Source: Actinomycetota bacterium (GTDB lineage Bacteria > Actinomycetota > Actinomycetes > S36-B12 > UBA5976). Taken from it: DNA of 64,000 nucleotides. Where the stretch lies: positions 1 to 64,000 of the forward strand of contig CANGDR010000006.1 in the NCBI GenBank assembly GCA_947452765.1, given 5' to 3'. The notes under the pieces were generated by a model, which did no database searches, was not told the origin of the DNA, and saw nothing but the letters and a program-made list of their open reading frames with translations. A program made the position numbers and the translations under genes. Of this stretch, positions 3,561-56,335 are shown one piece after another (position 1 is the stretch's first letter; each line of letters starts with the position of its first letter).

Positions 3561-5210
3561 TTATTTGGCCATCTGAGAAAGGCCATACGCGACGGCGTAT
3601 CTATGTCCCAACAAGCCAGCAACATTGCCCCGCCCCAATCCACTTACTTCATTAAGTTCACCAAGGATTGGAATTAGTTCATCATCAGCAGCGGGACCGC
3701 CCACAACCACAATGTCGCGCGGTTCGCTGTGACCAGTTTGGATCGACAGACTTCTGATTATTCGTGCCACGTTATTACCTAATGCCGCACGCTTAAGCGA
3801 GTGGCGCATGATTCGCCACTCGGCAGGTTGCAAATTTTTGCCAAATGTTAAGTAGCCAGCAGGGCCTTGAGTTACCAGTGATCCAGTTGCCGTGGCCGGA
3901 AACTCTTTAGTCTCGGGAACAAAATCCTTGGTGCCGTCTTCACCCAAGAGCACATGCGGTGAGTCAAGACGTTGCGCCGAGCCGCGCTTTACCCAGTCGG
4001 CAGCGCCGCGGGAAATACCTAAGGCTTGCGAAACCGCGGCAGTGAGTAATTCACCAGCACCAGCAGCAGAAATTTCTACCTCTCCAATTAAGTCAATCGT
4101 TCCGCCCCCAATGTCCAGGATTAATGAATCTGTCATTAAACCTGGTGTGCTATTTGCCCCAAGAGCAGCTGCCGCAGCTTCGGAAGTTGCGACTGTTACG
4201 TTAGTTGCAAAAATTTCAGCAAGTGGATAATCCGATGAATTAGTGGCCTTGGACAATTGCGCAATCGCAAGGTCGCGAGTGTGTCCAGAATTCCGTAGTC
4301 CCGTGATTGCTAGGGCTGATGTTATGTCAAAACCCCAAACATCCGAAGTAGCCTGATTTTCGTCAATGAATATCGATGTCACATCGCCTATTTGCGACTC
4401 TGGAAATTTTGGAACAGCGTGGAATAGGTTTTCAGTAACTCCAGATCGCCACGTAACCGAACTTTCGATTTCGGGTGCGGGCTGCTGCGCAAGAGGAAAC
4501 AGCCCAATCAAGATAGATCGTTCATCTTTAACCCACCGAGTCAATAAGTTAAGGGGTTCTGCTTCGACGTCACTTAATGAAAATAGCGACTTCATTGCCC
4601 AGACGTCAGTTGCAGTCTTTAGTAATTTTCCAGAAGGTCTAACTTCCACAAACAAATATGAAGCAGCTACCGTTAAGTCAACATCTACGCCGTCGATAAC
4701 TGGAATCGCTGCGTCTAGGCGCCTAGAAATAAGTACCGCTTCATCATCAGCGGCAACAACTGCGCCAATTTTGCAACCCTTTGCTACCGCTTGGTTAATA
4801 AATTGGGCTGCGACTTCAAATCCGGTAGCGCTCGGAACTACTGCGATTAAATCATCACCTGTTGGTAACGGACTTAAAACCGACCAAGGAGCGCCAGTTG
4901 CCGACCCATCACCAGAAACACTGTTGCTAGAGCTTGAAATTATCCGCAGCCGCCCAGTATCAGGTTGCGGTTCGTGGACCGTGGAAGTTGCAGTTGTTAC
5001 CGGACTCCACGGCGCAACAACAACATGGTCGACTTGCAAATTGTGGTTGCGTTCAATCGATCGCAATAGACCTGCCGCCGCATGAACCGAGGATTCGGAT
5101 CCCTTTTGCCCCCGTGTTGGTCGCCTATCCCAAGCGACAGGCTTGTCACCTAGCGAAACCACAATTTCAGTCGTTGAGTTTCCAATGTCTATTCCTGCTA
5201 CTAGATGCAT
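3561..5210 (-). CDS. Diol/glycerol dehydratase reactivase, large subunit (DdrA/PduG-like)
   Basis: 549-residue actin-fold ATPase of the diol dehydratase reactivating factor family. These chaperones exchange damaged cobalamin out of inactivated dehydratase. Phosphate-binding motifs are visible: DIGNSTTEIVV near residue 8 and DIGGGTIDLI near residue 365. A swiveling-domain segment and the AAFLV-type central region align with DdrA/PduG. The protein is about 60 residues shorter than the usual ~610. No gene for the small reactivase subunit (DdrB/PduH) is in the window. The start is an ATG five bases after the stop of the dehydratase small subunit, so the two are translationally linked. Confidence 0.88.
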   Translation of the reverse strand: MHLVAGIDIGNSTTEIVVSLGDKPVAWDRRPTRGQKGSESSVHAAAGLLRSIERNHNLQVDHVVVAPWSPVTTATSTVHEPQPDTGRLRIISSSSNSVSGDGSATGAPWSVLSPLPTGDDLIAVVPSATGFEVAAQFINQAVAKGCKIGAVVAADDEAVLISRRLDAAIPVIDGVDVDLTVAASYLFVEVRPSGKLLKTATDVWAMKSLFSLSDVEAEPLNLLTRWVKDERSILIGLFPLAQQPAPEIESSVTWRSGVTENLFHAVPKFPESQIGDVTSIFIDENQATSDVWGFDITSALAITGLRNSGHTRDLAIAQLSKATNSSDYPLAEIFATNVTVATSEAAAAALGANSTPGLMTDSLILDIGGGTIDLIGEVEISAAGAGELLTAAVSQALGISRGAADWVKRGSAQRLDSPHVLLGEDGTKDFVPETKEFPATATGSLVTQGPAGYLTFGKNLQPAEWRIMRHSLKRAALGNNVARIIRSLSIQTGHSEPRDIVVVGGPAADDELIPILGELNEVSGLGRGNVAGLLGHRYAVAYGLSQMAK

Positions 5211-5215
5211 GAGTT

Positions 5216-5584
5216 CTATTTTGCTGTTAGTCCGCGCCGAGCATAAACATCGGCAGCCTGCAGAAATAGCTCAGCGTTCTTGATGGCACCTTGGCTTGAT
5301 AGTTCAGTTGCGATAGCAGTTAACTGATCCGCGGTAGATCGACCTGGGCGAAGCGCATCGTAGTAACCCAGCACAACTGAATCTGGCAACGAGGTTAATT
5401 CCGCAGCTCGTCTAAAGTTTGCAGCAAGCTGGGGGTTGCCATTGGCTTCCGCAACTTTTGCTTGCATCTCTAAAGTTTCGGGATGGATCCGTACATCATC
5501 AAGAGTTATGTCGCCTCGGCGAATTGCTTCGATAGTTACATCAGTTACTGGCTTACCCGAGAATCCAAAATCACCTTTAGACAT
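5216..5584 (-). CDS. Diol/glycerol dehydratase small subunit (PduE-like)
   Basis: 122 residues match the conserved core of the small subunit of AdoCbl-dependent diol/glycerol dehydratase: a helical protein with TLDDVRIHPETLEMQA early and LRPGRST near residue 80. Canonical PduE is ~170 residues and begins with an N-terminal extension used for microcompartment targeting. That extension is absent here and the protein opens directly with the core. The start codon overlaps the stop of the fused large-medium gene (TAATG), as expected for stoichiometric assembly. Confident assignment. Confidence 0.88.
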   Translation of the reverse strand: MSKGDFGFSGKPVTDVTIEAIRRGDITLDDVRIHPETLEMQAKVAEANGNPQLAANFRRAAELTSLPDSVVLGYYDALRPGRSTADQLTAIATELSSQGAIKNAELFLQAADVYARRGLTAK

Positions 5585-7818
5585 TAGACGACCTCCAAAG
5601 TTTCTGGCGAGGCATTAGTGACACAATTGCGTTCTATTGCAACGAGGGAAACCACTTTAGTGTGGTACCGCGCTTCGATAGCCTCGTCAGAATATGGATT
5701 TCGAACTGGCTCCGGAGTTGCACCCTTTGCATGGCGACCAGCATTTATGCCAAGCATGCGATAAAGCTCTCGAGTTATTGTTGGCGCAACCGAATACAGT
5801 TCTAAATTGGCTAGCGGTGCCAAATCCCGCCTATGAATTAATGCAGTTCCCTTAGCTTGCAGTCCAACACTTATTCCGGATCCAGAAAGCCGAGCCGCAG
5901 TTAAGCCGATCATGCCTAAATCCAGACTGTCGTTGATACGCACAATGCGACCGACGCAGCCTTCTTCTTCAAGTCCAGCCATTAGTTCGCCGATGACATC
6001 TGTAACACTCAAGCCAGAGAGCGTCATCCAAATCTCTCGCCCGGTAGCAGGTGAAACTCCAATCACTACGTCCCTTGGGTCGTAACTGATTTCAGCAGAT
6101 CCTCTTACCCGAAGGTTCTGGCTCGCAAATATTTTTTGTTCATTTCGTAAATCTTCAACCGATTTTTGTTGCCGAATGTTGTCAATCTCGGCTTGTCGTT
6201 TAGCAGTTGGCTGGTATCCGGTACCTGGGCCGGAATATTCATTCGGATCGGTAACTAGCGAAAGCACATTCATTTCTTCATCAAAAATCGCGGAAGTTTG
6301 TAAGTAATCACCGACAACGCGCGCCTTAAGCATATTGAGGCAACGTTCGGCCTCTAGATCAAAGCCATTTTCTGCCAACGCTGAAATTACATCGAGCATC
6401 GTTACGTTGGTTTCCATAATTGTTCGGGCCGCATTCAAAGGCAGCATCAGATCGCCGGCGGTAACGTCTTTAGAACCCGCCGCGTCAACTGCCTGATCTG
6501 CCCAAGTTTGACTAAAGTCACCAAGTCCCAGGTGGGAATAAACCGCAGTAACTGCATCGGTCGCACGCTTACGTAATCTAGCTACTTCAGTTTCGTCGGC
6601 GGTGCGCAATCCACCATCAACTCCCCAGTCGCGTTGCATCGCAAGAAAATCATCAATGTCTTCGGCGTTCCACTGACTAGGACCAAACATGTTGTCATAT
6701 CTTTGGATTGAACCAAATCCGCTATTAATAAAATCTGAGCCACCAATAAATATTGGATGAGTTCGCGAGGTTCGTCGTACATCTGACTCACTCATTAATG
6801 CGTCATTACCTGTGCAGGCTTCAAGATTACGCAGCATGACCATAACGTTTTCCGCCATCATGGATCGAACTCCACCAGGTACTGCGCCTGCAACCGAGGC
6901 CGCGTCAATGCCGCCATTTTGTACGCCCTGCGATCCGATGGCGCGGGCAAGTGCAACACAACGAGCTTCAAGGTAAAACATGCTGCATTGTTCAGCCCCA
7001 CCCATTAGAGCTTCAGAGCCGCCACCGGATGTTACGCGCATTTTAATTCCACGACTTGCGTATGCACTTGTTAGAAATGCTTTGGACCAAGGAGTGTCGT
7101 CACCATCAATAAAGATTTGCTCTGTGCCATACAACGAAACAGTCTCGGCATAAGAAACTAGCCCGCGCATACCAAGTGCCAGTTCCGCAGCTTCTTCGAC
7201 GGAACATTGAACTAACACACCGGCCGCTCCGACAGCGGCTCCAATTGAAACTGCAACAGCATTTGATGGCGCATCCCCGGCAACCGGAACTGTGGTTTCA
7301 AGTTCTCTAAATCCAAAGGCGGCAGCAGTAGCAGCGTCCGCAGCAAGTAGTAGCGGATCATCCGACCTGTTAGTTACATGGGCCTGATTACTCGGTGTAC
7401 GCCTTGCCCGCATTTTTGTCATTGCGATAACCAATTCCGCGGCAGTCAGTCGCGAAAGTACTTCGGCAAGTTTTGCTGGCGTCATACCTGCAGCAAGGCG
7501 AACTATGTCTTTGCGGGAGTCGTTTGGATTTACTAGCATTCGAGCAAACTCGAGACTGTCGATAGCCATAGCCTCGGGCGCAAGGTTTAAATCCAAACCA
7601 TGGCGTGCAATGAATTCGTCGATTGCATCGAAGTCAGATTCTGATTTTCCGTCGAGTTCAACCACTCGGCCGTCAGAAATTTTTATGGAAGGCTTCGGGT
7701 CGTTTGGTCCGTCAAATGCAACTAGCCCTAGCTCAGGTGCCGGAGTTGCGAAGCCATCGAGATTGACGCGCTGTTCGTTCATAAAACGAAAGCGGCCAAT
7801 CGGCTCGTTTGGGGTCAT
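5584..7818 (-). CDS. pduCD: AdoCbl-dependent diol/glycerol dehydratase, fused large + medium subunit
   Basis: 744 residues in one chain. Residues 1 to ~540 align end to end with the PduC/DhaB large subunit and ~565-744 with the PduD/medium subunit. Active-site positions known from the Klebsiella enzyme are kept: QAHVTN (Gln141, His143), ETT (Glu170), GTEQIF (Glu221), QNG (Gln296), GND (Asp335) and DFINSG (around Ser362). The medium part keeps LSGSGIS and the K/H-rich cobalamin-contacting segment. It converts 1,2-propanediol, glycerol or a related diol to the aldehyde. The large-medium fusion is typical of actinobacterial enzymes. I chose the ATG at 7818 because it overlaps the preceding stop (ATGA); an ATG nine bases upstream is possible. 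The N-terminal targeting helix of PduD is missing at the junction. Confidence 0.93.
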   Translation of the reverse strand: MTPNEPIGRFRFMNEQRVNLDGFATPAPELGLVAFDGPNDPKPSIKISDGRVVELDGKSESDFDAIDEFIARHGLDLNLAPEAMAIDSLEFARMLVNPNDSRKDIVRLAAGMTPAKLAEVLSRLTAAELVIAMTKMRARRTPSNQAHVTNRSDDPLLLAADAATAAAFGFRELETTVPVAGDAPSNAVAVSIGAAVGAAGVLVQCSVEEAAELALGMRGLVSYAETVSLYGTEQIFIDGDDTPWSKAFLTSAYASRGIKMRVTSGGGSEALMGGAEQCSMFYLEARCVALARAIGSQGVQNGGIDAASVAGAVPGGVRSMMAENVMVMLRNLEACTGNDALMSESDVRRTSRTHPIFIGGSDFINSGFGSIQRYDNMFGPSQWNAEDIDDFLAMQRDWGVDGGLRTADETEVARLRKRATDAVTAVYSHLGLGDFSQTWADQAVDAAGSKDVTAGDLMLPLNAARTIMETNVTMLDVISALAENGFDLEAERCLNMLKARVVGDYLQTSAIFDEEMNVLSLVTDPNEYSGPGTGYQPTAKRQAEIDNIRQQKSVEDLRNEQKIFASQNLRVRGSAEISYDPRDVVIGVSPATGREIWMTLSGLSVTDVIGELMAGLEEEGCVGRIVRINDSLDLGMIGLTAARLSGSGISVGLQAKGTALIHRRDLAPLANLELYSVAPTITRELYRMLGINAGRHAKGATPEPVRNPYSDEAIEARYHTKVVSLVAIERNCVTNASPETLEVV

Positions 7819-8231
7819 GCCTGGCATGCTCGCTTAAATACTTCAATTCCGGCTTGGGCACAGATTTGATCCTCGTCCCATGATCCGCCGCTAACTCCGA
7901 TTGATCCGACTACTCGTTCGCCATCCCAACACGGAATTCCACCAGCAAATGCAATGTATCGTCCGTTGCCGTTTGCATTCATACCTGGCAAGTCGCCATC
8001 GGGTGCAACTCGTGCCCGAAGCTCACCAGTTTCAATTCGATTTGTTACTGATGTGTACGCCTTGTCAACTGCCAAATTTGGTCCAGCAAGTTCTGCGCCA
8101 TCCATACGTTCAAAACTCAATAAATTTGCACCCGCATCCAAGACGGCGATGGACATCGGAGCATTGATCTCGATTGCTTTTGCTTTAGCGGCATTAGTCA
8201 TTTCGAGTGCAAGTGCTAGATCAATTTCCAT
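7815..8231 (-). CDS. GlcG/HbpS-family protein (PduO C-terminal-like, DUF336)
   Basis: About 138 residues of the GlcG/PduO-C/haem-degrading superfamily. Typical elements are an N-terminal helix (LALALEMTNAAKAKA), PMSIAVLDAGANLL, the basic/aromatic centre, and a glycine-rich end (GGIPCWDGERVVGSIGVSGG). Members bind haem or corrinoids and are often encoded next to diol or glycerol dehydratases, where the exact role is unsettled. A start at 8231 is preferred because AAGGGTGG lies five bases upstream; an ATG at 8249 overlapping the previous stop is the alternative. The gene overlaps the dehydratase start by four bases. Confidence 0.8.
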   Translation of the reverse strand: MEIDLALALEMTNAAKAKAIEINAPMSIAVLDAGANLLSFERMDGAELAGPNLAVDKAYTSVTNRIETGELRARVAPDGDLPGMNANGNGRYIAFAGGIPCWDGERVVGSIGVSGGSWDEDQICAQAGIEVFKRACQA

Positions 8232-8248
8232 ACGTTCCACCCTTGGCA

Positions 8249-9286
8249 TCAGTTGCCTTTCTTATAGGTTTGCCACTGCGCAGCCTTAGCTCGCATTTTC
8301 TGATGCATACCCTGCATAACGTTCACACTACCTAAGTATTCCTTGGCGACTTTAGCGACCATTGTGTAGTTGGTATCAACCACATTTGCCACTGGAGTCA
8401 ATGCGGTTTGTGAAACAAACTGGTAGCTATCCAAAGTTGATTGACCAGTTAGCTCGCTCACCCAATGCACCATCTGGGTATGTGCAATTCGAAATGCATC
8501 CTCAAGCGGTTTAGTTGAGCCAGTAGTGATGATGTAATCATCTGATTCAATGCGGGGCCACGGTGTTGGAGTCCCCTTGATTAAATCGATTATCAGTACG
8601 GTATCCATGGCAGTCTCAACAGCCACACCGCACGTTTCACCCTCACCTTGGCGGGCATGACCATCACCAAATGAAAATAGGGCACCCTCGACATTGACTC
8701 CGAGGTAGCAAGTAACGCCTGCGCGCATTTCTGGCGAATCCATATTGCCGCCCCAGTCGCCTGGTGTTAAGGATGAGCGAACTTCGCCAAGGGCTGGTGC
8801 CACTCCGACAGTTCCATGCATCGGATCAAGTGGTAAGGCGGCAGTGAATTTGGTATCGGCTGCTGCGTATCTAACTAAGCGCTCAGTTAAGTCCAGTTCA
8901 TAAATCCAAGTTCGTTCCAAAAGTGCTGGCTGCAAAGTTGCAGTTGTCGGTGTTGAAGTAAGCGCGCCAAAGAATGGCACAGTCGTACTAACGCCCCAAG
9001 CTTCACGAGGTTCAATAGAAATGAAGTGAACCGCCAAGGTGTCACCTGGCTCGGCACCTTCGACATAGAACGGTCCGGTTTGCGGATTTAGAAATCTTGG
9101 ATCACAAACCTGGGTGGACATGTCACTTGGGGATTTAACGCGCCCACCGAAGCAATCAAATGACCAAGAATCAATTATTGTTCCTGGCTTAACACTTACG
9201 ACACCTTCGCGTCCACCGAATGTAAAGGTATGGGTGGCAGGATCGGCATCTTCATCCGGTGCCCAGTTACAAATCTCAAAATCCAT
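8249..9286 (-). CDS. Acetamidase/formamidase family protein
   Basis: About 345 residues of the FmdA/AmdA family, which hydrolyse short amides (formamide, acetamide) to ammonia and the acid. Family features include a long beta-rich core, AEPGDTLAVHFISIEP, the metal-site region GDGHARQGEGETCG and a C-terminal helical tail. No signal peptide. I favour the ATG at 9286 because AAGG lies eight bases upstream; a GTG at 9325 would add 13 residues. It follows the permease gene after a strong hairpin and overlaps the GlcG-like gene. The context points to release of ammonia from an amide that enters through the permease; the real substrate is unknown. Confidence 0.85.
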   Translation of the reverse strand: MDFEICNWAPDEDADPATHTFTFGGREGVVSVKPGTIIDSWSFDCFGGRVKSPSDMSTQVCDPRFLNPQTGPFYVEGAEPGDTLAVHFISIEPREAWGVSTTVPFFGALTSTPTTATLQPALLERTWIYELDLTERLVRYAAADTKFTAALPLDPMHGTVGVAPALGEVRSSLTPGDWGGNMDSPEMRAGVTCYLGVNVEGALFSFGDGHARQGEGETCGVAVETAMDTVLIIDLIKGTPTPWPRIESDDYIITTGSTKPLEDAFRIAHTQMVHWVSELTGQSTLDSYQFVSQTALTPVANVVDTNYTMVAKVAKEYLGSVNVMQGMHQKMRAKAAQWQTYKKGN

Positions 9287-9352
9287 TGTCATGACCTTAT
9301 TCTTGTGGATCGACTTCTTCGACACTTATGTATTGCCCCAAAAAGTATTCGA

Positions 9353-9395
9353 AACTGAAATTGGGCACCAGCAATGCTGATGCCCAATTTCAGTT
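9353..9395. terminator. Long hairpin between permease and formamidase genes
   Basis: A perfect 15-bp inverted repeat (arms 9353-9367 and 9381-9395) encloses a second small stem (CAGC/GCTG). On the plus strand it is followed by GTTTTTA, so it looks like a terminator for antisense transcription. On the minus strand, the direction of the operon, no T-run follows immediately. There it may be an attenuator or an mRNA processing site that lets the permease be expressed separately from the downstream enzymes. Confidence 0.6.
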
Positions 9396-9404
9396 GTTTT
9401 TACG

Positions 9405-11021
9405 CTAGACGCGCTCGTGAGCTTCCGAAAGAGTCGTTCGCCCAATTTCATCGTAGATTGCTGGATGTTTTGCCTTAACCCAATAGGCGTAGAGCAAGCC
9501 AACTAGCAATGTTCCAATAATCTGGTGCGGCAGATACTTAACCATCAACGACTGGGACTGGTAGCCGGCAGCGAAGCCGGAACCGACTGCACTAAAGAGC
9601 AAGGTAAGCGCATAAATCATGCCGCCAGCACCAACAAGTGGAGCTACGAGCGTAGTTAGCACGTTACCCTTTTGCTTCTTTTTACCCCAGAAGTAACCGA
9701 TTACTGCGAATGAACACATGACCTGTACCACAAGAACGAAAGCCGTTCCGACGAGTGAAGGCACGGTGTAGATAACGCTGTACGGCAACAAGTTAGGGTC
9801 TGAAGTCGCACCTGCTACAGCTGGATCAGATGTCCAAGCGGTTGAGAAGGTAGTAAACAACAACACCATGATGATGTTTATGACGGTCACGATTGAGGAT
9901 GCAACCGCAGGTGATTGATGCTTTGCGCTAACTCCGCCAATCCTTGCGCGCAAATTTGCTGACGGCAGTTCGCGACCAAGTGCGAATACGTAGCGTGATG
10001 CTGCATTGTGGAATGCCATAGCGCATGCGAATGAACCAATAACTAGGAGAATTCGATACAAGTTGTAAGGCAATGTACCTAGATTTTCCTGAACTGGAAC
10101 GAGCCAGAGGTCGACTGGATTTCCAGTACTACCGGATGACACTTCAACAGTTGTCTTGGCGCCATTAGCAACTACTGCCATCCAGGAAAGGAAGGTGTAG
10201 AACAAGCCAAGGCCGATAACTGCAATAAGTGTTGCCCGTGGCACGATCTGCTTAGGGTTTTTGGATTCTTCACCGTAAACGGCTGTGGTTTCGTATCCGA
10301 TCCAAGACCAGAAAGCGAAGAAGATACCTAGCGCAGCTGTGCCAGCGGCAACTGATGAACCATATGCGCCTTCAGGAAGATTCTTGAATGCTGAGCCAAG
10401 ACCAACTGTGTCGTTAACCATGAAGCCATCAGGTCCACCCTTGATAAGCACCGAGATACCAAAGGCAAGAAGCAATAGAACTTCGGAGACCAGTGTCACA
10501 CTGAGAACTGCAGCGGCGAGAGTGATGTCGTAATACGTAAGTATCCAAATCAAAATCATGCCAAGTAATGCAATAACTAACCAATTAACAGTTATCCCAG
10601 CCATCGCTGTCAAAGTATTTGATGCGAAGTATGCAAAACCACCGATCAAAGTTCCCTCGAACAGGATGTAGGCGATAGTTGCAAGCAAGCCAGCAGCCAT
10701 ACCCCAAACCTGACCTAAACCGTGTGAGATAAAGCCATAGAACGCACCAGTCGTAGTTATGTACTTCGACATCGCAGCAAAGCCAACTGTGAAGATTGTC
10801 AGAACTATCGTTGCGAATAGGTAACCTGCTGGTACTCCGATTCCATTACCCCAACCAGCACCAACAGGAACGTTGAAGCTCATTGCAGTAATAGGCGCTG
10901 CGTTAGCAACTGCCATAAACAGAACAGAAACCATGCCTACGGCACCCGTTCTCAGACCCGTGTGAACCACGTGATCTCCCGGAGACGCACTATCTAGGCG
11001 CGAATCATTGTTTGTCGACAT
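9405..11021 (-). CDS. APC-superfamily amino acid/amine permease
   Basis: 538 residues with about 12-14 predicted membrane segments, beginning after a short polar N-terminus (~residue 28). The APC signature is visible: the unwound first helix region (MSFNVPVGAGWGNGIGVPAGY), IGYETTAVYGEESKNPKQIVPRAT near the middle, and a conserved NAASRYVFALGRE stretch. Such carriers import amino acids, polyamines or amino alcohols with protons. An RBS (GAAAGG) lies nine bases before the ATG. It is the first gene of the minus-strand dehydratase operon and faces the divergent microcompartment operon. Substrate unknown; an amino alcohol or amide is inferred from context. Confidence 0.88.
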   Translation of the reverse strand: MSTNNDSRLDSASPGDHVVHTGLRTGAVGMVSVLFMAVANAAPITAMSFNVPVGAGWGNGIGVPAGYLFATIVLTIFTVGFAAMSKYITTTGAFYGFISHGLGQVWGMAAGLLATIAYILFEGTLIGGFAYFASNTLTAMAGITVNWLVIALLGMILIWILTYYDITLAAAVLSVTLVSEVLLLLAFGISVLIKGGPDGFMVNDTVGLGSAFKNLPEGAYGSSVAAGTAALGIFFAFWSWIGYETTAVYGEESKNPKQIVPRATLIAVIGLGLFYTFLSWMAVVANGAKTTVEVSSGSTGNPVDLWLVPVQENLGTLPYNLYRILLVIGSFACAMAFHNAASRYVFALGRELPSANLRARIGGVSAKHQSPAVASSIVTVINIIMVLLFTTFSTAWTSDPAVAGATSDPNLLPYSVIYTVPSLVGTAFVLVVQVMCSFAVIGYFWGKKKQKGNVLTTLVAPLVGAGGMIYALTLLFSAVGSGFAAGYQSQSLMVKYLPHQIIGTLLVGLLYAYWVKAKHPAIYDEIGRTTLSEAHERV

Positions 11022-11377
11022 TCGTACGACCCTTTCGTTTTAACGTCGAGGAGCTCCCGACATTGCTCACTTGCGGTGACGTCAGTCACACGTTTGGTAC
11101 GACTTTGCCAGAAACGCAACAGCAAAACAATGAAATTGGGAGAGTTTTCCAGTGTTTTTTGGTCAAGAGAATATTGAATTTGGTCTAAAAAATCATAGTG
11201 AAGCAGACAAAATAGACATACTTGCCAGTAAAACTAAGGTTTTATGGGGATTTAGTTGATAAACCAAAGTTCAACCAAAAGTTGCTAAAAGGTATGGTCT
11301 TTTGGTCTAATTCTATGTAATCATTTGTTTAGGTGAGCTGTGAATGCAGATGCCAGGCGATAACGAAAGGTTTCGGG
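11022..11377. promoter_or_regulatory. Divergent promoter region with repeated TGGTC(T) elements
   Basis: This 355-bp spacer separates the minus-strand dehydratase operon from the plus-strand microcompartment operon. TGGTC half-sites occur at 11160, 11181 (TGGTCTA), 11295 (TGGTCT) and 11303 (TGGTCTA). The last two form a direct repeat eight bases apart. A plus-strand promoter can be read as TTGCTA (11282-11287), an 18-bp spacer and TCTAAT (11306-11311); the repeat pair overlaps its spacer and -10. A weaker minus-strand -10 (TATTCT, 11173-11168) sits next to the 11181 copy. TGGTCTA is the half-site of HutC-type GntR operators, and such a regulator is encoded at 18571. No gene is seen in the spacer. 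Confidence 0.5.
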
Positions 11378-12685
11378 ATGACCCAAGAACACGTTGCTGC
11401 ACCCGAATTTGATTATGGACTCTTTTCATATGACTCCAAAGAGCAAATGCTTGATAAGTCAAAAGAGTTTTGGAATCCAGGTAAAACGCAATTCTGGATT
11501 GATTCTGGCGTTCCACTTGTAATTGATCGCCGCGAAGAATACTTCATTTATGACATGTCAGGTAAACGCCTGATTGATGCGCACCTAAATGGCGGAACTT
11601 ACAACTTAGGTCACCGCAATCCTGAAGTAGTGCAAGCCGTGACCATGGCAATGCAGCATTTTGATATTGGTAATCACCATTTCCCCTCACTTGCCCGAAC
11701 TGCATTAGCGGAAGCTTTGATTAAAACTGCGCCAGCTGGCCTAAGCAAAGTTATCTATGGCTCTGGTGGTGGAGAGGCAATTGACATCGCACTTAAGACT
11801 GCACGTCATGCAACGCAAAAGCGGAAAATTGTTTCAATTATTAAGGCATATCACGGACACACTGGACTTGCAGTTGGCACTGGCGATGATCGATTCTCGA
11901 AACTTTTCCTTTCAGATCGACCAGAAGAATTTCCGCATGTACCGTTTAATGACCTAGAAGCAATGGAAGATGCATTACGGGGACGCGATGTAGCGGCAGT
12001 AATTATGGAAACTATTCCAGCCACATATGGATTCCCACTTCCTAACCCAGGATATTTAGAGGCCGTAAAAGTACTTTGCGAGAAATATGATGCGCTGTAC
12101 ATTGCTGACGAAGTTCAAACCGGCTTAATGCGCACCGGAGAACTTTGGGGAATTACCAAGCACGGAATAACTCCAGACATTCTTGTCACAGGCAAGGGAA
12201 TCTCTGGCGGCTTGTATCCAATTGCAGCAGTGCTTGCAACCGAGAAAGCTGCCGGCTGGTTAAACGAAGATGGCTTTGGGCACATCTCAACTTTTGGCGG
12301 CGCTGAACTCGGCTGTATTGCCGCACTTAAGACTTTAGAAATTTGCTCCCGTGAAGAAACCCGGTCGATGGTGCATTACATTGCTGACTACGTTGGTAAG
12401 CGGCTTGCCGAAGTTCAAGCAACATATCCTGATTGGTTTGTTGGCATCCGGCAAAACGGCGTAATTCTAGGTTTGGAATTTGCTCACCCACAAGGTGCAA
12501 AGTATGTGATGCGCCACTTATACGAGAACGGCGTGTGGGCAATTTTCTCCACGCTTGATCCGCGGGTACTGCAATACAAGCCAGGAATTTTACTTAAGCC
12601 AGAAGTAGCCGAAGAGATGCTGGATCGCACCGAGCTTGCAATTGGAAAAGCATATGCCGAAATCCGCAACGAGCGGAGATCATGA
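11378..12685 (+). CDS. Class III aminotransferase-fold enzyme (probable amino-alcohol-phosphate phospho-lyase of RMM locus)
   Basis: 435 residues, PLP-dependent fold type I, class III aminotransferase family. Visible are GSGGGEAIDIALKTAR (cofactor phosphate site), ADEVQTGLMRTG, and the Schiff-base lysine in VTGKGISGG (Lys273). The ATG at 11378 has GAAAGG seven bases upstream; an in-frame GTG at 11333 lacks support. In RMM microcompartment loci the equivalent enzyme is a phospho-lyase that turns phosphorylated 1-amino-2-propanol into propionaldehyde, ammonia and phosphate; its kinase is encoded at 16726. A true transaminase is the alternative. It overlaps the next gene by four bases. Confidence 0.85.
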   Translation: MTQEHVAAPEFDYGLFSYDSKEQMLDKSKEFWNPGKTQFWIDSGVPLVIDRREEYFIYDMSGKRLIDAHLNGGTYNLGHRNPEVVQAVTMAMQHFDIGNHHFPSLARTALAEALIKTAPAGLSKVIYGSGGGEAIDIALKTARHATQKRKIVSIIKAYHGHTGLAVGTGDDRFSKLFLSDRPEEFPHVPFNDLEAMEDALRGRDVAAVIMETIPATYGFPLPNPGYLEAVKVLCEKYDALYIADEVQTGLMRTGELWGITKHGITPDILVTGKGISGGLYPIAAVLATEKAAGWLNEDGFGHISTFGGAELGCIAALKTLEICSREETRSMVHYIADYVGKRLAEVQATYPDWFVGIRQNGVILGLEFAHPQGAKYVMRHLYENGVWAIFSTLDPRVLQYKPGILLKPEVAEEMLDRTELAIGKAYAEIRNERRS

Positions 12686-14256
12686 TGAGCGAGATGACTT
12701 ACGAACCGTTGATGGTTGAACCAGCAGGTGTGCCGCGTGGTCGGGCAATGATAGAGCGGGCCGATTGGGCTGCTCGTGCTTATGCGAAGTACGACGTTGC
12801 AACTGTAAATCGAATCGTTGATGCCGCAGCGTCCGCCCTGGCAGCCAGGGCACAAGAGTTCGCACGCGATGCCGTAGCCGAAACTGGCTTTGGTGTAGTT
12901 GAACATAAAGTTCTAAAAAATGTAGCTTGCTCCACTGGAATCGTCGATGCTTATCGCGGTCAAGATTTTGTTTCGCCTGAAATTGATGACGTAAATAAAA
13001 TTGTGGCCATTCCTAGGCCAGCCGGCGTAGTCCTGGCATTAACACCATCGACTAACCCCGTAGCTACCGTTTCGTTCAAGATTATTTTGGCCTTGATGAC
13101 TCGAAACGCAATCATTATCAGCCCGCACCCGATGGCTAAGAAGGTATGCTCAGCAGCCGCCAAGGCAATGGCAGAAGCGGCAGTGGCTGCCGGTGCCCCA
13201 GATGGAATCATTCAAATTGTGGAGGATCCTTCGATCCCACTGATAAATGCCCTCATGACAGATGAACGAACCGATGTGATTGTGGCTACTGGTGGCAGTC
13301 CGGTTGTTCGGTCGGCATACCGAAGTGGCAATCCCGCTATTGGCGTTGGTCCGGGCAATGTTCCCGTACTCGTTGACTCAACCGCCGATATTCAAAAGAC
13401 GGCCGCTCGAATTATTGAGAGCAAAGCATTCGATAACTCAATTTTATGCACGAACGAAAGTGTCGTAATCGCAGAAGAAGCGATTGCAGATAAGTTGCTT
13501 TCGGCTTTCGCCCGTGAAGGTGCCTATGTTCTAAAAGATGAAGAGCGCGACGCAATTCGTAACACGGTATTTCCAGAAGGTCATTTCAACATCAAGATGG
13601 TTGGTAAAGATGCGGTTTGGATTGCAGAGCAAGCCGGCCTAAAAGTTCCAGCAAAAACAAGAGTCTTAGTTGCACCGTTTGACTTAGTAGTTCCGGAAGA
13701 ACCATTTGCACATGAAAAGTTGTGTCCGGTCCTTGGATTTGTTCGAGTTCCAACTGCAGAGCGCGGCATTGATATTGCGCGCGCCATTTTGCGAATCACC
13801 GGAGCGGGACATTCGGCTGCAATTCATAGTGCAAATCCAGATCTCATTATGAAATTTAGTGCTGCTGTCCCAGTGCTTCGGGTTTCAGTAAATGTTGGAA
13901 ATAGTCTTGGTGCTTCAGGAATCCAAACGAACTTGCCAACAACTATGACCATCGGCACTGGATTTGCTGGTCGCTCTTCGGTCGGTGAAAATCTGCAACC
14001 AAAGCACCTTATTAACTACACCCGGTTGGCGTATAACTCCGATGTACGCGAAGTCATGCCAGCATTTGCTGGTTTGAATCCCTGGGTTGCACCGGCTGGT
14101 CCGGTCCCTGCCTACCCAACGGCATCAAATGATCGCAATAACGCTCAAGTGCCTGCGCCGATTCATCGTGAACCAATTTCCCAAGATGTTGCGGAATTGC
14201 GAGATGAAATTCGCAAATTGATTGTCGAAGAACTTCACGCATTGATTAAGAACTAA
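12682..14256 (+). CDS. CoA-acylating aldehyde dehydrogenase of microcompartment (PduP/EutE-like)
   Basis: 524 residues of the acylating aldehyde dehydrogenase family, which oxidises propionaldehyde or acetaldehyde with CoA and NAD to the acyl-CoA. The catalytic cysteine is Cys256 in SILCTNE; VLALTPSTNP and GVGPGNVPV are family motifs. After the catalytic core comes a Pro/Ala-rich linker (~460-500), then a C-terminal amphipathic helix (VAELRDEIRKLIVEELHALI) of the kind used as an encapsulation peptide. Overlap with the phospho-lyase gene (ATGA) and proximity to shell genes place it as the core cargo enzyme of the shell. Confidence 0.92.
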   Translation: MMSEMTYEPLMVEPAGVPRGRAMIERADWAARAYAKYDVATVNRIVDAAASALAARAQEFARDAVAETGFGVVEHKVLKNVACSTGIVDAYRGQDFVSPEIDDVNKIVAIPRPAGVVLALTPSTNPVATVSFKIILALMTRNAIIISPHPMAKKVCSAAAKAMAEAAVAAGAPDGIIQIVEDPSIPLINALMTDERTDVIVATGGSPVVRSAYRSGNPAIGVGPGNVPVLVDSTADIQKTAARIIESKAFDNSILCTNESVVIAEEAIADKLLSAFAREGAYVLKDEERDAIRNTVFPEGHFNIKMVGKDAVWIAEQAGLKVPAKTRVLVAPFDLVVPEEPFAHEKLCPVLGFVRVPTAERGIDIARAILRITGAGHSAAIHSANPDLIMKFSAAVPVLRVSVNVGNSLGASGIQTNLPTTMTIGTGFAGRSSVGENLQPKHLINYTRLAYNSDVREVMPAFAGLNPWVAPAGPVPAYPTASNDRNNAQVPAPIHREPISQDVAELRDEIRKLIVEELHALIKN

Positions 14257-14273
14257 TTAGAGAAGAGAGATAC

Positions 14274-14873
14274 ATGGCAGAGCTACGGTCGTTCATCTAT
14301 ATCGACCAGATGCAACCTCAAACTATGTGCTACCTAGGTACATGGGTTAAGGGCGCTTTGCCTCGAGCAAATATGGCTGCACAAGTCATCGAAGTCGCAC
14401 CTGGCTTAGATATTGAAGCGTTAACAGATGTGGCACTTAAACACGCAAATGTTCAGGCTGGAATCCTGTTCGTGGAACGCACGTTTGGCTACTTAGAAAT
14501 ACACGGGCCCACTGAAGAAGTGCGGGCAGCAGGTCAGGCAGTACTTGCAGCGCTCGGAACATCTGAGGCGGAAGCGACTAAGCCTAAAATCTTGGCTTCT
14601 CGAGTTGTACCTTCGATTGATCAGCAACATGCATTCTTGATCAATCGCAACAAGGTCGGCTCGATGATCCTCCCTGGTGAATCTTTGTACATACTCGAAG
14701 TTCAGCCAGCTTCGTATGCAATCTTGGCAACCAACGAAGCGGAAAAGGCAACTGACATTAAAGTTGTCGACTATCGCATGATTGGCGCAACCGGCCGCGT
14801 ATATCTATCCGGCAAAGAAGCAAATGTTCGAGCAGCAGCAGAAGTTGCTGAACGAGTTTTGAGTGAGCGCTGA
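14274..14873 (+). CDS. BMC-T shell protein (tandem BMC domain), first copy
   Basis: 199 residues with two BMC domains in tandem (about 1-95 and 96-199), predicted to form trimeric pseudohexamers in the facets of the microcompartment shell. Family landmarks are VIEVAPGLDIEALTDVALK, GILFVERTFGYLEIHG in the first domain and IGATGRVYLSG in the second. A good RBS (AGAAGAGAG) precedes the ATG. It is a paralogue of the shell protein at 15995: both contain an NRN-x-x-x-SM-x-x-PGES segment. Trimer pores of this type often gate larger molecules such as cofactors; that is family knowledge, not seen here. Confidence 0.88.
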   Translation: MAELRSFIYIDQMQPQTMCYLGTWVKGALPRANMAAQVIEVAPGLDIEALTDVALKHANVQAGILFVERTFGYLEIHGPTEEVRAAGQAVLAALGTSEAEATKPKILASRVVPSIDQQHAFLINRNKVGSMILPGESLYILEVQPASYAILATNEAEKATDIKVVDYRMIGATGRVYLSGKEANVRAAAEVAERVLSER

Positions 14874-15361
14874 TGGCTACAGATAACGAAATGCTACGCG
14901 CGCTTGTGCGTGAAGCGCTGCGTGATGCTCTTGGTGGCGCAAGCGGTGCTAGCGAAATTGCTAAAGCATTGTCTGGAAACGCAACACCCGTTCAAAAGCA
15001 GGTGCAAGTTGTAGAGATGGTTTCCTTGGCAACGGATGCGCAAGTGCAATCTTTTGTACATCGCATTCTTGACCTAGCGGCCGATGAAAAAACTTTGAGC
15101 GCATTACGCCAGGGTGAAATCGTTTTTCAATTGTCTGACCAAGCTAAAGCTAATGCTGCTGACAATTCTGGAACCACTCGCGTAGACAAGGGTGCTGTTA
15201 CCGAGTCAACCATTAGAAAAGCCGCCGAATCAGGATCAACATTGATCGTAGGGCGCAAAGTTGTCGTCACATCATTAGCGCGAGATAAAGCTCGCGATTT
15301 AGGTGTGACGATCATTAAGGAAAGTCAACAAGATAATCAGAAGGGATCGGTGATGCGCTGA
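14873..15361 (+). CDS. Microcompartment-associated small protein with encapsulation-like N-terminal helix
   Basis: 162 residues without a recognised catalytic domain. Residues 5-20 (NEMLRALVREALRDAL) form an amphipathic helix of encapsulation-peptide type, followed by a flexible stretch. The C-terminal ~50 residues (VTESTIRKAAESGSTLIVG, then TSLARDKARDLGVTI) resemble a small module found at the ends of several microcompartment proteins. The gene overlaps both its neighbours (one-base overlap with the BMC-T gene and with the BMC-P gene), so it is an integral part of the shell operon. A scaffold or adaptor that links cargo to shell is plausible. Function is not established. Confidence 0.7.
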   Translation: MATDNEMLRALVREALRDALGGASGASEIAKALSGNATPVQKQVQVVEMVSLATDAQVQSFVHRILDLAADEKTLSALRQGEIVFQLSDQAKANAADNSGTTRVDKGAVTESTIRKAAESGSTLIVGRKVVVTSLARDKARDLGVTIIKESQQDNQKGSVMR

Positions 15362-15630
15362 TGTTAAAAGCGCGAGTCATCGGCAATGTATGGGCGACCC
15401 GTCGTCTAACCGAGATTCCCCATGGGGCGTTTCTCGAGGTCGAAGTTGAAGGTGGCGCACACTTGGTTGCTTTCGACGTATTGGGTTCCGGAATTGGGGA
15501 AAGCGTTTTAGTTTCAACTGGCTCGGTAGCAGCAGCTTGGTTCTCAGACGTAACACCACCAATTGATGCTCTCATCATCGGTTCGATTGATGAGGACTCT
15601 AAGAGTTCTGGGAAGCACAGCGCTTCTTAG
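15361..15630 (+). CDS. BMC-P pentameric vertex protein (EutN/CcmL-like)
   Basis: 89 residues, matching the EutN/CcmL family: MLKARVIGNVWATRR at the N-terminus, FLEVEVEGGAHLVAFDVLGSG in the middle and DALIIGSID toward the end. Pentamers cap the vertices of the polyhedral shell, and one such gene is enough to close it. The ATG overlaps the preceding TGA (TGATG). An 83-bp gap with two small hairpins follows before the BMC-H gene. Confidence 0.93.
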   Translation: MLKARVIGNVWATRRLTEIPHGAFLEVEVEGGAHLVAFDVLGSGIGESVLVSTGSVAAAWFSDVTPPIDALIIGSIDEDSKSSGKHSAS

Positions 15631-15637
15631 TACACCG

Positions 15638-15691
15638 CCTGGGAAACCAGGTAAGTAAGACCGAATAAACCGAAAGCAAACAACCGTTTGC
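15638..15691 (+). other. Two small hairpins upstream of BMC-H gene
   Basis: The 83-bp gap before the BMC-H start holds CCTGG-GAAA-CCAGG (15638-15651) and GCAAAC-AACC-GTTTGC (15676-15691), then TAGGAG as RBS. Neither hairpin is followed by a T-run. They could protect a processed 5' end and so raise BMC-H output, since this is the most abundant shell protein. This is the only sizeable gap within the shell gene cluster. Confidence 0.4.
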
Positions 15692-15713
15692 AATCACAAA
15701 TAGGAGAAAGAAT

Positions 15714-15998
15714 ATGTCAAGCAACGCACTGGGCTTGATCGAGACTAAGGGATATGTTGCAGCCGTTGCTGCCGCAGATGCCATGGTTAAGGCAGCCAAT
15801 GTAACTATTGTTGCGCGTGAAGAAGTTGGCGACGGTCTTGTAACTGTAGTCATCGTGGGTGATGTCGGCGCAGTTAAGGCTGCAACTGACGCAGGTGCCG
15901 AAGCAGTTAACCAAGTTGGCGAACTAGTTTCACAGCACGTGATTCCACGTCCACACGCAGAACTAAGTAAGTACTTCAAGGTAGGCGAGTCCGCGTGA
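15714..15998 (+). CDS. BMC-H hexameric shell protein (PduA/CcmK-like)
   Basis: 94 residues, one BMC domain. Typical features are [26 protein letters not shown] at the N-terminus, [13 protein letters not shown] in the middle and HVIPRPH near the C-terminus. Hexamers tile the shell facets. This is the only single-domain BMC gene in the window and has its own strong RBS (TAGGAGAAAG, with the AGGAG core ten bases upstream), as expected for the major shell component. The stop overlaps the GTG start of the next BMC-T gene (GTGA). Confidence 0.95.
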
Positions 15999-16651
15999 GT
16001 GCGGGCCCACTCGTAGCGGGGCCCGAACTACGCGTCTACTTACTTGTTGAAGAGCTCCAGCAGCAATTTGCTGCATACATGGGCACGCCGACGCGGGCTC
16101 GGGGTTATCCGCCTTATGGTGGTCAACACTCGTTGATCATTGAGGTGGCACCCGGGCTTGCGATCGAGCGAGTAATTGATTTGGCGCTGAAGTCGGTTCC
16201 TGAAGTTGAGCCCGGCATCTTGTTCGTGGAACGGCAGTTTGGTGTGTTAGAAGTTCATGCTTCTGATATCGAATTGGTCAAACGGGCTGGTCAAGCGATC
16301 CTTGATGGCATTAATGCATCGGCAGCTGACCAACTACGCCCACGGATTCTTTACAGCGACATCATCGAGAACATCACGGATCAACATGCCATAATTCTCA
16401 ACCGCAATCGCCAAGCATCTATGGTGATGCCCGGTGAGTCGCTATTGGTTTATGAAATGACTCCGGCATTGTTTGCGACAGTGGCTGCAAATGAAGCGGA
16501 GAAAGTCGCCCCAGATGTGACATTAGTTGACGTTCAAATGATTGGCGCCGCGGGACGTGTCTATATGAGCGGTTCTACCGCAAGGGTTACGTTAGCTCGC
16601 GATGCAATTACTAAGGCTCTCGAGTCTGTGGTTGGCCGCGAGCAAGGTTAA
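15995..16651 (+). CDS. BMC-T shell protein (tandem BMC domain), second copy
   Basis: 218 residues, two BMC domains (about 10-110 and 111-215), a paralogue of the protein at 14274. Shared features include [33 protein letters not shown] and [11 protein letters not shown]. The N-terminus is longer, with an inserted loop ([13 protein letters not shown]). The GTG start overlaps the BMC-H stop. Two different BMC-T proteins together with one BMC-H and one BMC-P form a complete minimal shell set and match the composition of RMM microcompartments. Confidence 0.88.
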
Positions 16652-34970: not shown

Positions 34971-35019
34971 ACCAGAACGTTTTCACCGGATCAGGCATAC
35001 TTGCCGTAAGAGGTGAGTT

Positions 35020-36762
35020 ATGAAATTAGATCGCGAGGCATTGCTGGGTCTCAACTGCCCGGATGGCAATGACTTGGTACGCCAAGGAATTGAATTTGGC
35101 TCGAATATTGAAGTTGGAGTAAGTGCTTTCAGTCGTTCTCACGGAGTTAAATCCGAACTTGAATATAAGTTAAAAATGGCGCGCGAAGGCCGAACGATGA
35201 CGGCCCTAACTATTGGATTGACTGATTGGCCAGAAACTAAAAAGGGCCTGGAGCACATTTATCAAGTTACGCAAGATCGCGGATTCTATATCGACCGATT
35301 CATTATTGCCCTTGATCGTCGAATGGGATTGCCACCTGAATTGCGTTCGGGAGCAATAAAAGAAACTGGACCAATGCTGACTTCAGATTCTGAATGGTTG
35401 GAGGTTGCGCAATCGATCGAGATCCAGCCACACATGGGCGACATGATGATTGGCTCACCCTCATCGCTAGACAACACACGTAGGGCCTTGGAGTCTGGCG
35501 TAAATTACATCGGTAACTTATCTCAATTCGCTTGGAAATATCCTGGCTGGCCTGGCGACGATGTAGCGCAAATGTCAGAGGTAGTTAAAGCACTGGGATT
35601 AATGGCGAGCAAAGCAGCGCAAGGTGCAGTCGTTCACTCGTACCTAGATGATGGCTTTCCTGCACAATTTGGTGACTACAGCTCCTATATTGGCTGGGCA
35701 AAATTTGAACGCTATCTAATCGAAGACTTGATTGGCGCAAAGCTAGGACACGCATACGGTGGTTTGACGCATGATCCAGTTACCAAAACTGTGGTAACTA
35801 TGGCAGTTGAAGCGTTGCGACCAAGCGATGTTTGTTCATCTTTCTATTTTGGAAATACTACGCGCTATACGCCAAATATTGAACAAAACTATGGCGTGCT
35901 GGGTGTCGACGTTCTTTACATGATGTTGGCGGATAAACACTTGAAAGCAGGATCGTCAATCATGCCGGTACCGGTCACCGAAGCAATTCGGGTTCCAACC
36001 CCAGATGAGATTATTGATGTCCAAACTATTGCCCACAACACGAAAGCAAAGCTGAATTCCATTTACGAAGTCACAAATTGGAGTGAACTAGAGCAGCGAA
36101 GCCAACAACTTGTAGCAAATGGAAATAGATTCTTCGATAACTTACTCAACGGCCTTTCGGATTCTGGTGTGGATATTAACGACCCACTGCAATTATTGGT
36201 TGCAGTCAGGCGCCTTGGCCCCAGCGGGATAGAACGAAACTTTGGAGTTGGCAATGCGACAGAGGATCCGTTGGTTGATGGTTACGAACCACTTGTCCCG
36301 ACCGATGTTTTAAAAGATTTCTTAACGGAACGAACCCAAATTCGAAGTGCGGTACGCCCCGAGAAATGGGTTTTGAATAAGGCTCATACCCCGATTGTTG
36401 CTTCCAGCGATGTTCATGAACTCGGCATGAGATTGGTAATTGATGCGGTCGAAAGCCTGGACATTAAGCCAGTAATTAGCCCAGTTGGAATCGATCCAGA
36501 TGAATTGGCCGAGCTAGCGCTGCAAGAAGAGGCAACTTCAGTACTAATTTCAACACACAATGGCATGGCCCTAAGTTATGCCGAGAAACTTCTAGCTGAA
36601 CTTAAGGCCCGCAACATTGCACCGCAAGTGATAATTGGGGGCCGGTTGAATCAAGAGATTGAAGGCGAAGGCATGCCAGTTGATGTAACCAATCAACTTA
36701 TTGCCCTAGGAATTGATGTCTGCGTTGATTTAAAGGACTTAGCAAGGATGCTAAGAAACTAA
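35020..36762 (+). CDS. Orphan cobalamin-dependent mutase-like protein (TIM barrel + B12-binding domain)
   Basis: 580 residues. The N-terminal ~400 residues look like the barrel domain of the glutamate-mutase/methylaspartate-mutase group (repeated beta-alpha segments, IGWAKFERYLIEDLIGAKLGHAYGGL). The C-terminal ~120 residues form a B12-binding Rossmann domain with the complete base-off motif: DVHELG at 464-469 (His466 as axial ligand), SVL at 507-509 and GG at 540-541. The RBS AGAGGTG precedes the ATG. I cannot name the substrate: it is not recognisable as methylmalonyl-CoA mutase. Its 3' end overlaps that of the convergent kynureninase gene by four bases. Confidence 0.75.
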   Translation: MKLDREALLGLNCPDGNDLVRQGIEFGSNIEVGVSAFSRSHGVKSELEYKLKMAREGRTMTALTIGLTDWPETKKGLEHIYQVTQDRGFYIDRFIIALDRRMGLPPELRSGAIKETGPMLTSDSEWLEVAQSIEIQPHMGDMMIGSPSSLDNTRRALESGVNYIGNLSQFAWKYPGWPGDDVAQMSEVVKALGLMASKAAQGAVVHSYLDDGFPAQFGDYSSYIGWAKFERYLIEDLIGAKLGHAYGGLTHDPVTKTVVTMAVEALRPSDVCSSFYFGNTTRYTPNIEQNYGVLGVDVLYMMLADKHLKAGSSIMPVPVTEAIRVPTPDEIIDVQTIAHNTKAKLNSIYEVTNWSELEQRSQQLVANGNRFFDNLLNGLSDSGVDINDPLQLLVAVRRLGPSGIERNFGVGNATEDPLVDGYEPLVPTDVLKDFLTERTQIRSAVRPEKWVLNKAHTPIVASSDVHELGMRLVIDAVESLDIKPVISPVGIDPDELAELALQEEATSVLISTHNGMALSYAEKLLAELKARNIAPQVIIGGRLNQEIEGEGMPVDVTNQLIALGIDVCVDLKDLARMLRN

Positions 36763-38042
36763 GACACTTTTATGGCGCTGAGATCCAAAGCTTTGTATTT
36801 ACCAGATTGCGTGTAGTCGCGGATGCGCTCGAAACCTTCGAATACTTCTAAATATGAAGTGGCTAGTGGCGAGATAGCCAGACGGATGCAGTTCGGAGCA
36901 CGGTAGTCCGGAATGACCTTCATGTCATCACGCAACCCGCGTGCTATCTGCGCCGCATCCGGATGGTAAATACTGATGTGCCCACCACGAAGATTTGCTT
37001 CGCGTGGGGTTATAAGTTGATATCCAATTTCTACTAGCCATTGCTCATAAAGTTCAATCATCATGTCAGTACCTTTTGCGGCCTTTGCATTGATGGCTGC
37101 AATTGTTGCTTCTGCAATCATCCCAAAACCTTCATCGATGCAGAGTAAACCCATTATGGAAGGGCTAGCGATCTGGAAACCCCGCATTCCTTCGATCTGA
37201 TCAAATTGCGATCCCATTAAGAATTGATTCCGTTGCGCAAACCAACCTTGAATCGGCAGTTGTAGTTCTGTTTGGATCTGCTTGCTCACATATAACCATG
37301 CAGGTGACCCTGGTCCAGAGTTTCCATATTTGTATGTGCAGCCAACCGCAAGATCTACGCCATCACGATCAAATTGCAAATCGACTGCGCCAACGGCATG
37401 ACTTGCATCCCAAACCATCAGAGCGCCCGCTGTGCGAACTAGGTCAGTGAGTTCCTTAACGTTATGTAGAGCTCCAGAACGATAGGCAACAACTGAAAGC
37501 GTGACAACCGCAACATCAGCATTTAAGTACGGTTGCAATAACTCTGCAGTAACTCGTTCGTTGCTGAAATCTTCGCCCGCAATATGTTCTCTCAGATCAT
37601 TTGGAATAATTACCAGATTTAGATCTAACTCGTCGGCAATACCTTGCATGATATATCGATCAGTCGGGAAGTTCGCTTCATCAGTAATGATGGTTCGTCG
37701 ACCTGGTCGCGCCGAAATAGCGGCTCTAATCAAGCGATAAAAATTTACACTGGTGGTATCCATTGCGAGGGTTTGGCCACTCGCTGCGCCTAAAGCAGCT
37801 CGACCTATTAAGTCTCCAGTGGTCTCGGCTTTGTCGATCCACTCTGCCCAGCCATCGACCATCTTCGCGCCCCAACCTGTAACCAAGAATTCATTGATGG
37901 TCTCGATTGTGGATTTTGGTAGGCGTCCTAAGGAATTGCCATCTAGGTAGCAAATGTCCGGATCCATAACCACGAAGCGATCCCGGAATTTTGCAAGGGG
38001 GTCGGTGACATCTAGGTTCTGGGCATCTTGGCGAGTGAACAT
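36759..38042 (-). CDS. kynU: Kynureninase
   Basis: About 427 residues, PLP fold type I, cleaving kynurenine to anthranilate and alanine in tryptophan breakdown. Seen are YLDGNSLGRLP near the N-terminus, DEANFPTDRYI, VWDASHAVGAVDL and the PLP lysine in CTYKYGNSGPGSPAW. Start chosen at 38042 because MFTRQDAQ aligns with usual kynureninase starts; the in-frame extension of 33 residues upstream looks non-coding. No tryptophan dioxygenase or formamidase for kynurenine is in the window, so it is a lone pathway gene here. Confidence 0.9.
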   Translation of the reverse strand: MFTRQDAQNLDVTDPLAKFRDRFVVMDPDICYLDGNSLGRLPKSTIETINEFLVTGWGAKMVDGWAEWIDKAETTGDLIGRAALGAASGQTLAMDTTSVNFYRLIRAAISARPGRRTIITDEANFPTDRYIMQGIADELDLNLVIIPNDLREHIAGEDFSNERVTAELLQPYLNADVAVVTLSVVAYRSGALHNVKELTDLVRTAGALMVWDASHAVGAVDLQFDRDGVDLAVGCTYKYGNSGPGSPAWLYVSKQIQTELQLPIQGWFAQRNQFLMGSQFDQIEGMRGFQIASPSIMGLLCIDEGFGMIAEATIAAINAKAAKGTDMMIELYEQWLVEIGYQLITPREANLRGGHISIYHPDAAQIARGLRDDMKVIPDYRAPNCIRLAISPLATSYLEVFEGFERIRDYTQSGKYKALDLSAIKVS

Positions 38043-38213
38043 GGAAATAAGGGTATTGCTAGTGACGTTTCGACAGTTAGTTGATGCTGCGCAACCCCAG
38101 TTTTCTGGACGTTTTGTGGGAATCCCTGAAAACTGGCACAATCAAGGGGTTGGTCGGTTCACGCAAGGCATCCGAGTCTGCGACCCGATCACAGTATTTA
38201 TAAGGAGAAATCC

Positions 38214-55762: not shown

Positions 55763-56335
55763 TTACCGAGTGTTACCTGGCTTCCAAAGTACGTCGCCAA
55801 TTTCCTTATTTGCAACTCTCGAAAGTATGAATAGTAAATCTGAAAGTCGATTTAAGTAGTTTGCAGCTAGTACGTTCATCCCGCCGTGGTACATATCCAC
55901 AGCAGCCCAAGTGCTTCGCTCAGCACGTCGAGCAACCGTACGAGCAACATGCAAGTATGCAGCACCAACCGTTCCGCCAGGCAAAATGAATGATCGCAAA
56001 GCTTCAAGCTCTTCGTTGTATTTATCGCAGGCCGCTTCAAGCCGCTCGATATATTCAGGAGTTACTCGTAGCGGTTCATGTGCTGGGTTGTCGATAACAG
56101 GAGTGCAGAGATCTGCACCTACATCGAACAATTCATTTTGGATATTTAAAAGTAATTCACGAACATCCTCGCGTAGCTCGCCAGCAGCGATGGCTAAGCC
56201 AATTGAGCTGTTGGCTTCATCAACATCCGCATACGCCTTTAGGCGCGGATCGTTCTTTCCGGTTCGGCTCATGTCACCAAGATTGGTCGTGCCGTCATCA
56301 CCAGTGCGGGTGTAAATTCTCGTTAAATTAACCAT
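55763..56335 (-). CDS. Cob(I)alamin adenosyltransferase, PduO type
   Basis: 190 residues of the PduO/MMAB family, making adenosylcobalamin from cobalamin and ATP. The ATP-binding N-terminus is [14 protein letters not shown], the central signature is [13 protein letters not shown], and [17 protein letters not shown] is the C-terminal motif. It supplies AdoCbl to enzymes such as the diol dehydratase at 5584 and probably the orphan mutase at 35020. A leaderless -10 (TAGGCT) lies six bases before the ATG. Not physically linked to the dehydratase operon. Confidence 0.93.

Follow-up and report, generated by a model that had tools for sequence, protein, structure and literature searches.

To our knowledge, only a handful of carbon-skeleton rearrangements are catalysed by adenosylcobalamin (AdoCbl)-dependent mutases; the known enzymes are the methylmalonyl-, isobutyryl-, 2-hydroxyisobutyryl-, ethylmalonyl- and pivalyl-CoA mutases, glutamate mutase (GlmE + GlmS) and 2-methyleneglutarate mutase (MgM). 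In glutamate mutase, glutamate is bound by the arginine claw residues of GlmE. MgM is a single-chain AdoCbl carbon-skeleton mutase of about 66–70 kDa in which the barrel and the B12 domain are fused. A glutamate residue (E330 in GlmE, E370 in methylmalonyl-CoA mutase (MCM) and E338 in ornithine aminomutase) lies in contact with the adenosyl ribose, where it aids Co–C homolysis (PMC4413051, PMC3958899), and MutL is the reactivase of glutamate mutase (PMC4682846).

Analysis of the window, i.e. the whole 64,000-nucleotide stretch of DNA taken from a 1.6-Mb MAG, revealed a gene whose product is best explained, with a probability of roughly 0.72, as a one-chain carbon-skeleton mutase that depends on AdoCbl, falls into the glutamate mutase class, represents a family that appears to be undescribed and acts on a substrate other than glutamate. 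This reading draws on the gene and its domains, the family, the homology of the barrel to GlmE, the conserved Glu and His, and the MutL linkage in relatives; from these, AdoCbl use, carbon-skeleton chemistry and an amino-type substrate would be predicted. The gene occupied positions 35020–36762 of the forward strand, with an ATG at 35020 and a stop codon ending at 36762, and encoded a 580-amino-acid (aa) protein (P0001) with a barrel and a B12-binding domain in one chain. A ribosome-binding site (GAGGTG, 35010–35015, +) could be recognized by eye, and the terminator belonging to rho was located 5' of the ORF. The coordinates given in the earlier note were therefore exact. Along with the ORF call and the conserved homologs, comparison with same-genus homologs (80% identity) yielded pN values of 0.11–0.12 against saturated pS values of 0.77–0.85, indicating that the gene is functional and under strong purifying selection. 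No cobalamin riboswitch was found within the window.

The C-terminal part of the protein (residues 460–580; 36397–36759, +) was assigned to a Rossmann-like B12-binding domain by PF02310 and profile matches. The Pfam score of the window protein, at residues 460–543, was slightly below the cut-off (30.2 against 32.1 bits), and PF02310 was matched by 12/12 homologs, with a best E-value of 5.5e-13. Profile matches were obtained to the B12 domains of methionine synthase, MCM and GlmS. The earlier note had described a complete DxHxxG / SxL / GG signature, of which the first and the last parts could be seen as DVHELG (D464–G469; 36409–36426, +) and G540-G541 (36637–36642, +), and the literal SxL was replaced by a variant, S-T-H-N-G (36550–36564, +), within S511-T-H-N-G-M-A-L of the window protein. 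The family form of this motif is S-T-[H/Y]-N-G. Among the 31 homologs, H466, N514, G515, G540 and G541 were invariant, D464 was kept in 25 and otherwise replaced by E, and G469 was present in 17. A base-off B12 domain is accordingly predicted, with H466 as the putative lower axial Co ligand.

The protein was modelled by AlphaFold2 from seven closely related sequences, the Rhizobiales members being left out, at low to moderate confidence. The model consisted of a beta/alpha barrel, a mostly helical region and the Rossmann-like end, in that order. Residues 60–340 (35197–36039, +) formed eight alternating strands and helices (pLDDT 59, pTM 0.60), which supports at modest confidence the TIM-barrel-like domain noticed earlier; the mostly helical linker of residues 341–459 (36040–36396, +) was modelled in part at low confidence. 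In searches with single members, residues 1–450 matched nothing in Pfam, NCBIfam or PDB sequences, and the NCBIfam MCM matches to the window protein covered the B12 domain only and remained below the cut-off. PF06368 (GlmE) was absent in 12/12 members tested and also in genome G000. The protein could be assigned to no characterised family of Pfam, NCBIfam or PDB sequences, so clear membership in one, the finding by which the earlier note would have been contradicted, was not seen.

Foldseek placed two E-subunit chains of glutamate mutase (6h9e_B and 1cb7_B; E about 2e-7) at the top of the PDB matches, above MCM, which appeared from rank 3. Independently of the model, the family profile, compared by hhalign, matched a ten-sequence GlmE profile over 308 collinear columns (E 4.6e-6, probability 86%, 15% identity), spanning the barrel from end to end. 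Eight column-shuffled GlmE profiles and one reversed profile served as controls and gave E-values of 0.17–0.69; GlmE against MCM in the same set-up gave 8.2e-5. The GlmE signal grew with added sequences, from E 0.016 through 0.0015 to 7.5e-6. No match of the family barrel to the MCM alpha chain could be obtained (E 0.28). Based on the profile-profile match and the Foldseek ranking of the model, the predicted barrel is a remote homolog of GlmE, in agreement with the resemblance to the glutamate mutase group proposed in the earlier note. Its description of the barrel and B12 domain as one chain was likewise borne out, but the fusion itself is no novelty, since it also occurs in MCM, in MgM and in a GlmS-GlmE protein of Roseibium. 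The latter, a plasmid gene (L070, 2500–4494; 664 aa), carries a GlmS-like B12 domain fused N-terminally to GlmE, and its neighbours include an NRPS adenylation gene, an aromatic amino acid lyase and an amino acid racemase.

Comparison of the active site was made on the same profile alignment, in which the local register is uncertain at single residues because the homology is remote. The codon at 35980–35982 (+) specifies E321, which was found in 31/31 family members and aligned with GlmE E330 (10/10 in the GlmE set); the flanking prolines P318 and P326 aligned with P328 and P335 of GlmE. The adenosyl-ribose Glu characteristic of AdoCbl mutases thus appears to be present. The arginine claw was missing: R66 was replaced by T/H/N/Q and R149 mostly by M, both being invariant in the ten GlmE sequences, and R100 aligned with G in a stretch of uncertain register. 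In addition, K326 of GlmE was replaced by P/A. The loss of the claw suggests that the substrate is not glutamate.

The family alignment comprised 31 members from Nanopelagicales, other Actinobacteriota and Rhizobiales megaplasmids, with about 35% identity between branches. The gene was present in 7 of the 166 genomes of the order, all within the genus of the window (7/23 genus genomes). In Shinella, Sinorhizobium, Neorhizobium and Phyllobacterium, megaplasmids carried full-length homologs with 34–36% identity, and a profile search revealed the gene in other Actinobacteriota classes, in 15/232 genomes of one order and in 9/299 genomes of the class that includes G267; these two sets overlap. No relatives were found in phages or IMG/VR viral contigs. 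A 28-row tree resolved five well-supported groups, namely Nanopelagicales, Rhizobiales, two groups with MutL and one without. In the clade without MutL (L103–L109 from G629–G635), proteins had a shorter N terminus, and in the DxHxxG motif D and G were often replaced, the His being kept; the cofactor site may be changed there. Judging from the patchy occurrence across these genomes, the distribution suggests horizontal transfer of the gene. A truncated copy in Rhizobium lentis (L038, 7749–8714), annotated as a DUF1349 protein, corresponded to the C-terminal 38% of the query and adjoined an IS66 transposase. Two same-genus MAG contigs (L014 and L015) were labelled Bifidobacterium breve, apparently by mistake. 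A literature search found no paper describing the family.

A MutL/GlmL gene directly adjoined the family gene, on its 3' or 5' side, in nine actinobacterial loci of two tree clades (L060, L096, L097, L098, L100, L101, L102, L105 and L110); a tenth locus of the same clade, L099, ended at the contig edge. The L060 MutL scored 438 bits in Pfam and passed the NCBIfam cut-off for the GlmL family (236 against 204). MutL relatives occur in ornithine degradation as well, to judge from a match to NCBIfam NF040744. No MutL was found in the window genome or in its six same-genus carriers. The protein had been described as having no known substrate or partner; the loci of nine relatives do provide a partner.

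The remaining neighbours differed between clades. L060 and L096 contained an ABC transporter of the Pot type, a pair of GlnA-like enzymes (scoring highest in NCBIfam with gamma-glutamylputrescine synthetase, though under the cut-off), a PuuD-like hydrolase, a CoA-transferase III, HyuAB and a thiolase, and the second MutL clade had SDR and class III aminotransferase genes nearby. Across the loci, a class III aminotransferase occurred in six, and the neighbouring ABC transporters were of the Pot, Liv, Dpp or amino-acid type. The Rhizobiales loci contained a P5CR-like reductase and a GntR gene, with a Liv transporter and FAD oxidoreductases in 3/4; E1 alpha/beta genes (E1-E2 acetoin-dehydrogenase-like) were present in both Neorhizobium and L098. 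In Nanopelagicales, an M14 peptidase-like gene was located just upstream in four genomes, one genome having an additional Liv transporter and class III aminotransferase. In a genus relative (L065, 2914–10582), a cassette of a Liv-type ABC transporter, a class II glutamine amidotransferase, a class III aminotransferase and an M14 peptidase-like gene was located between rho and the gene; the window genome has no such cassette. Amines or amino acids are the common thread of these neighbours, and no single pathway emerges. Since the neighbourhoods differ between clades, an amino-type substrate is a trend and not proof; from gene context, the most likely substrate would be a catabolised amine or a compound resembling an amino acid.

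In the window itself, the gene converges on a genuine kynureninase, which matched 1qz9 in phmmer at E 3e-74. Its longest ORF (36759–38141, −) probably has an over-extended start, as relatives begin at the methionine of MFTRQDA, at about 38042, and some of them have an in-frame TAA upstream of that start. Among 23 same-genus genomes, both genes were present in five, the family gene only in two, kynureninase only in eight and neither in eight. A link to the kynurenine pathway was rejected on this independent occurrence, and the adjacency, in which the earlier note had seen no clear pathway, is no evidence for function. The two further B12-related genes that the note had listed are both real. One is a fused diol dehydratase large and medium subunit (5584–7827, −). 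The other, a PduO-type cobalamin adenosyltransferase (55763–56335, −; PF01923, 204.5 bits), is a candidate AdoCbl supplier that is not adjacent to the gene. The dehydratase and its reactivase (3561–5210, −) belong to a locus with bacterial-microcompartment features (1192–16651), which also holds a class III aminotransferase (11333–12685), an aldehyde dehydrogenase (12682–14256) and a BMC-domain shell protein (14274–14873). A fused urease gamma-beta gene is found at 1192–1869 (−).

Several other explanations were weighed against a mutase of the glutamate mutase class. An AdoCbl enzyme of the same fold with other chemistry, such as amino-group migration or amine elimination, would suit the amine-type neighbours and the MutL relatives of ornithine degradation, and lysine 5,6-aminomutase (8t0v_A, E 2.8e-4) did occur further down the Foldseek list. 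However, the best fold match was GlmE and not an aminomutase or eliminase, and known B12 aminomutases need a Lys-bound PLP, so that the lack of an invariant Lys among the 31 homologs argues against a PLP-dependent aminomutase; this explanation is unlikely. Still less probable is a methylcobalamin-dependent methyltransferase in which a corrinoid domain is combined with a TIM-barrel methyl donor or acceptor domain. The B12 domain matched methionine synthase (1bmt_A, E 1.4e-6) and TIM barrels are also found in methyltransferases, but Pfam scans showed no helical cap domain ahead of the B12 domain, the barrel sides with GlmE, the Glu of AdoCbl mutases is kept throughout, and in related loci MutL rather than a methyltransferase activase is the neighbour, so this option appears very improbable.

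The protein could also be MgM or a close relative, which shares the same single-chain architecture, a similar size and the reaction class. Neither the window host nor the Rhizobiales hosts are known to be nicotinate-fermenting anaerobes, which counts against MgM, and no nicotinate-fermentation enzymes were seen near any family member examined; identity with MgM or close kinship to it is considered quite unlikely. MgM was known only from the unsequenced Eubacterium barkeri in a 2009 survey (PMC2667541), and for this reason it may be ill-labelled in sequence databases. The family appears undescribed, and its relation to MgM is the main uncertainty about its novelty.

For the favoured carbon-skeleton mutase, the following mechanism may be proposed. 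The C-terminal domain would hold the cofactor base-off/His-on by means of H466. Once the enzyme has closed, E321 at the mouth of the barrel would contact the adenosyl ribose and favour Co–C homolysis. The 5'-deoxyadenosyl radical would then take a hydrogen atom from the barrel-held substrate, and the substrate radical would rearrange before the hydrogen is returned. In most related actinobacteria MutL would swap the damaged cofactor, and the window genus, which has no MutL, would need another route. The reaction may well be, with odds slightly above even, an unlisted AdoCbl carbon-skeleton rearrangement of a nitrogen-containing substrate in a catabolic pathway common to freshwater actinobacteria, other Actinobacteriota and rhizobial megaplasmids. 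A well-conserved unnamed family whose GlmE-like barrel lacks the glutamate claw suggests an additional substrate and a new B12-dependent route of amine or amino-acid breakdown. Such a route would add a reason why streamlined freshwater actinobacteria need B12, and the solute-binding proteins adjoining the rhizobial and actinobacterial genes make the substrate question accessible to experiment.

Among known systems, MCM and the acyl-CoA mutases share the order of barrel and C-terminal B12 domain with the family, but differ in barrel profile (the E 0.28 given above). An uncharacterised B12 family with a predicted TIM barrel was reported by Zhang and Gladyshev in 2009 from Clostridia, Lactobacillales, Chloroflexi and Thermotogae; its B12 domain is N-terminal and always encoded beside octopine/nopaline dehydrogenase (PMC2667541), and identity with it was rejected owing to this other architecture and context. 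Lysine 5,6- and ornithine 4,5-aminomutases are alike in barrel, B12 domain, AdoCbl and MutL-like partners, and unlike the family in their PLP-binding Lys and lower Foldseek rank. MgM is alike by description, but nicotinate-fermentation genes are absent from the neighbourhoods of the family. Glutamate mutase shares the homologous barrel, the E330 counterpart, the B12-domain superfamily and, in nine related loci, the adjoining MutL/GlmL, and differs in having two chains where the family has one and no separate S subunit, in the claw residues and K326, and in the methylaspartase gene, which was not seen near family members; the family is also too distant for PF06368. The protein likely works like glutamate mutase, but it is not glutamate mutase, as the claw, PF06368 and the subunit split all differ.
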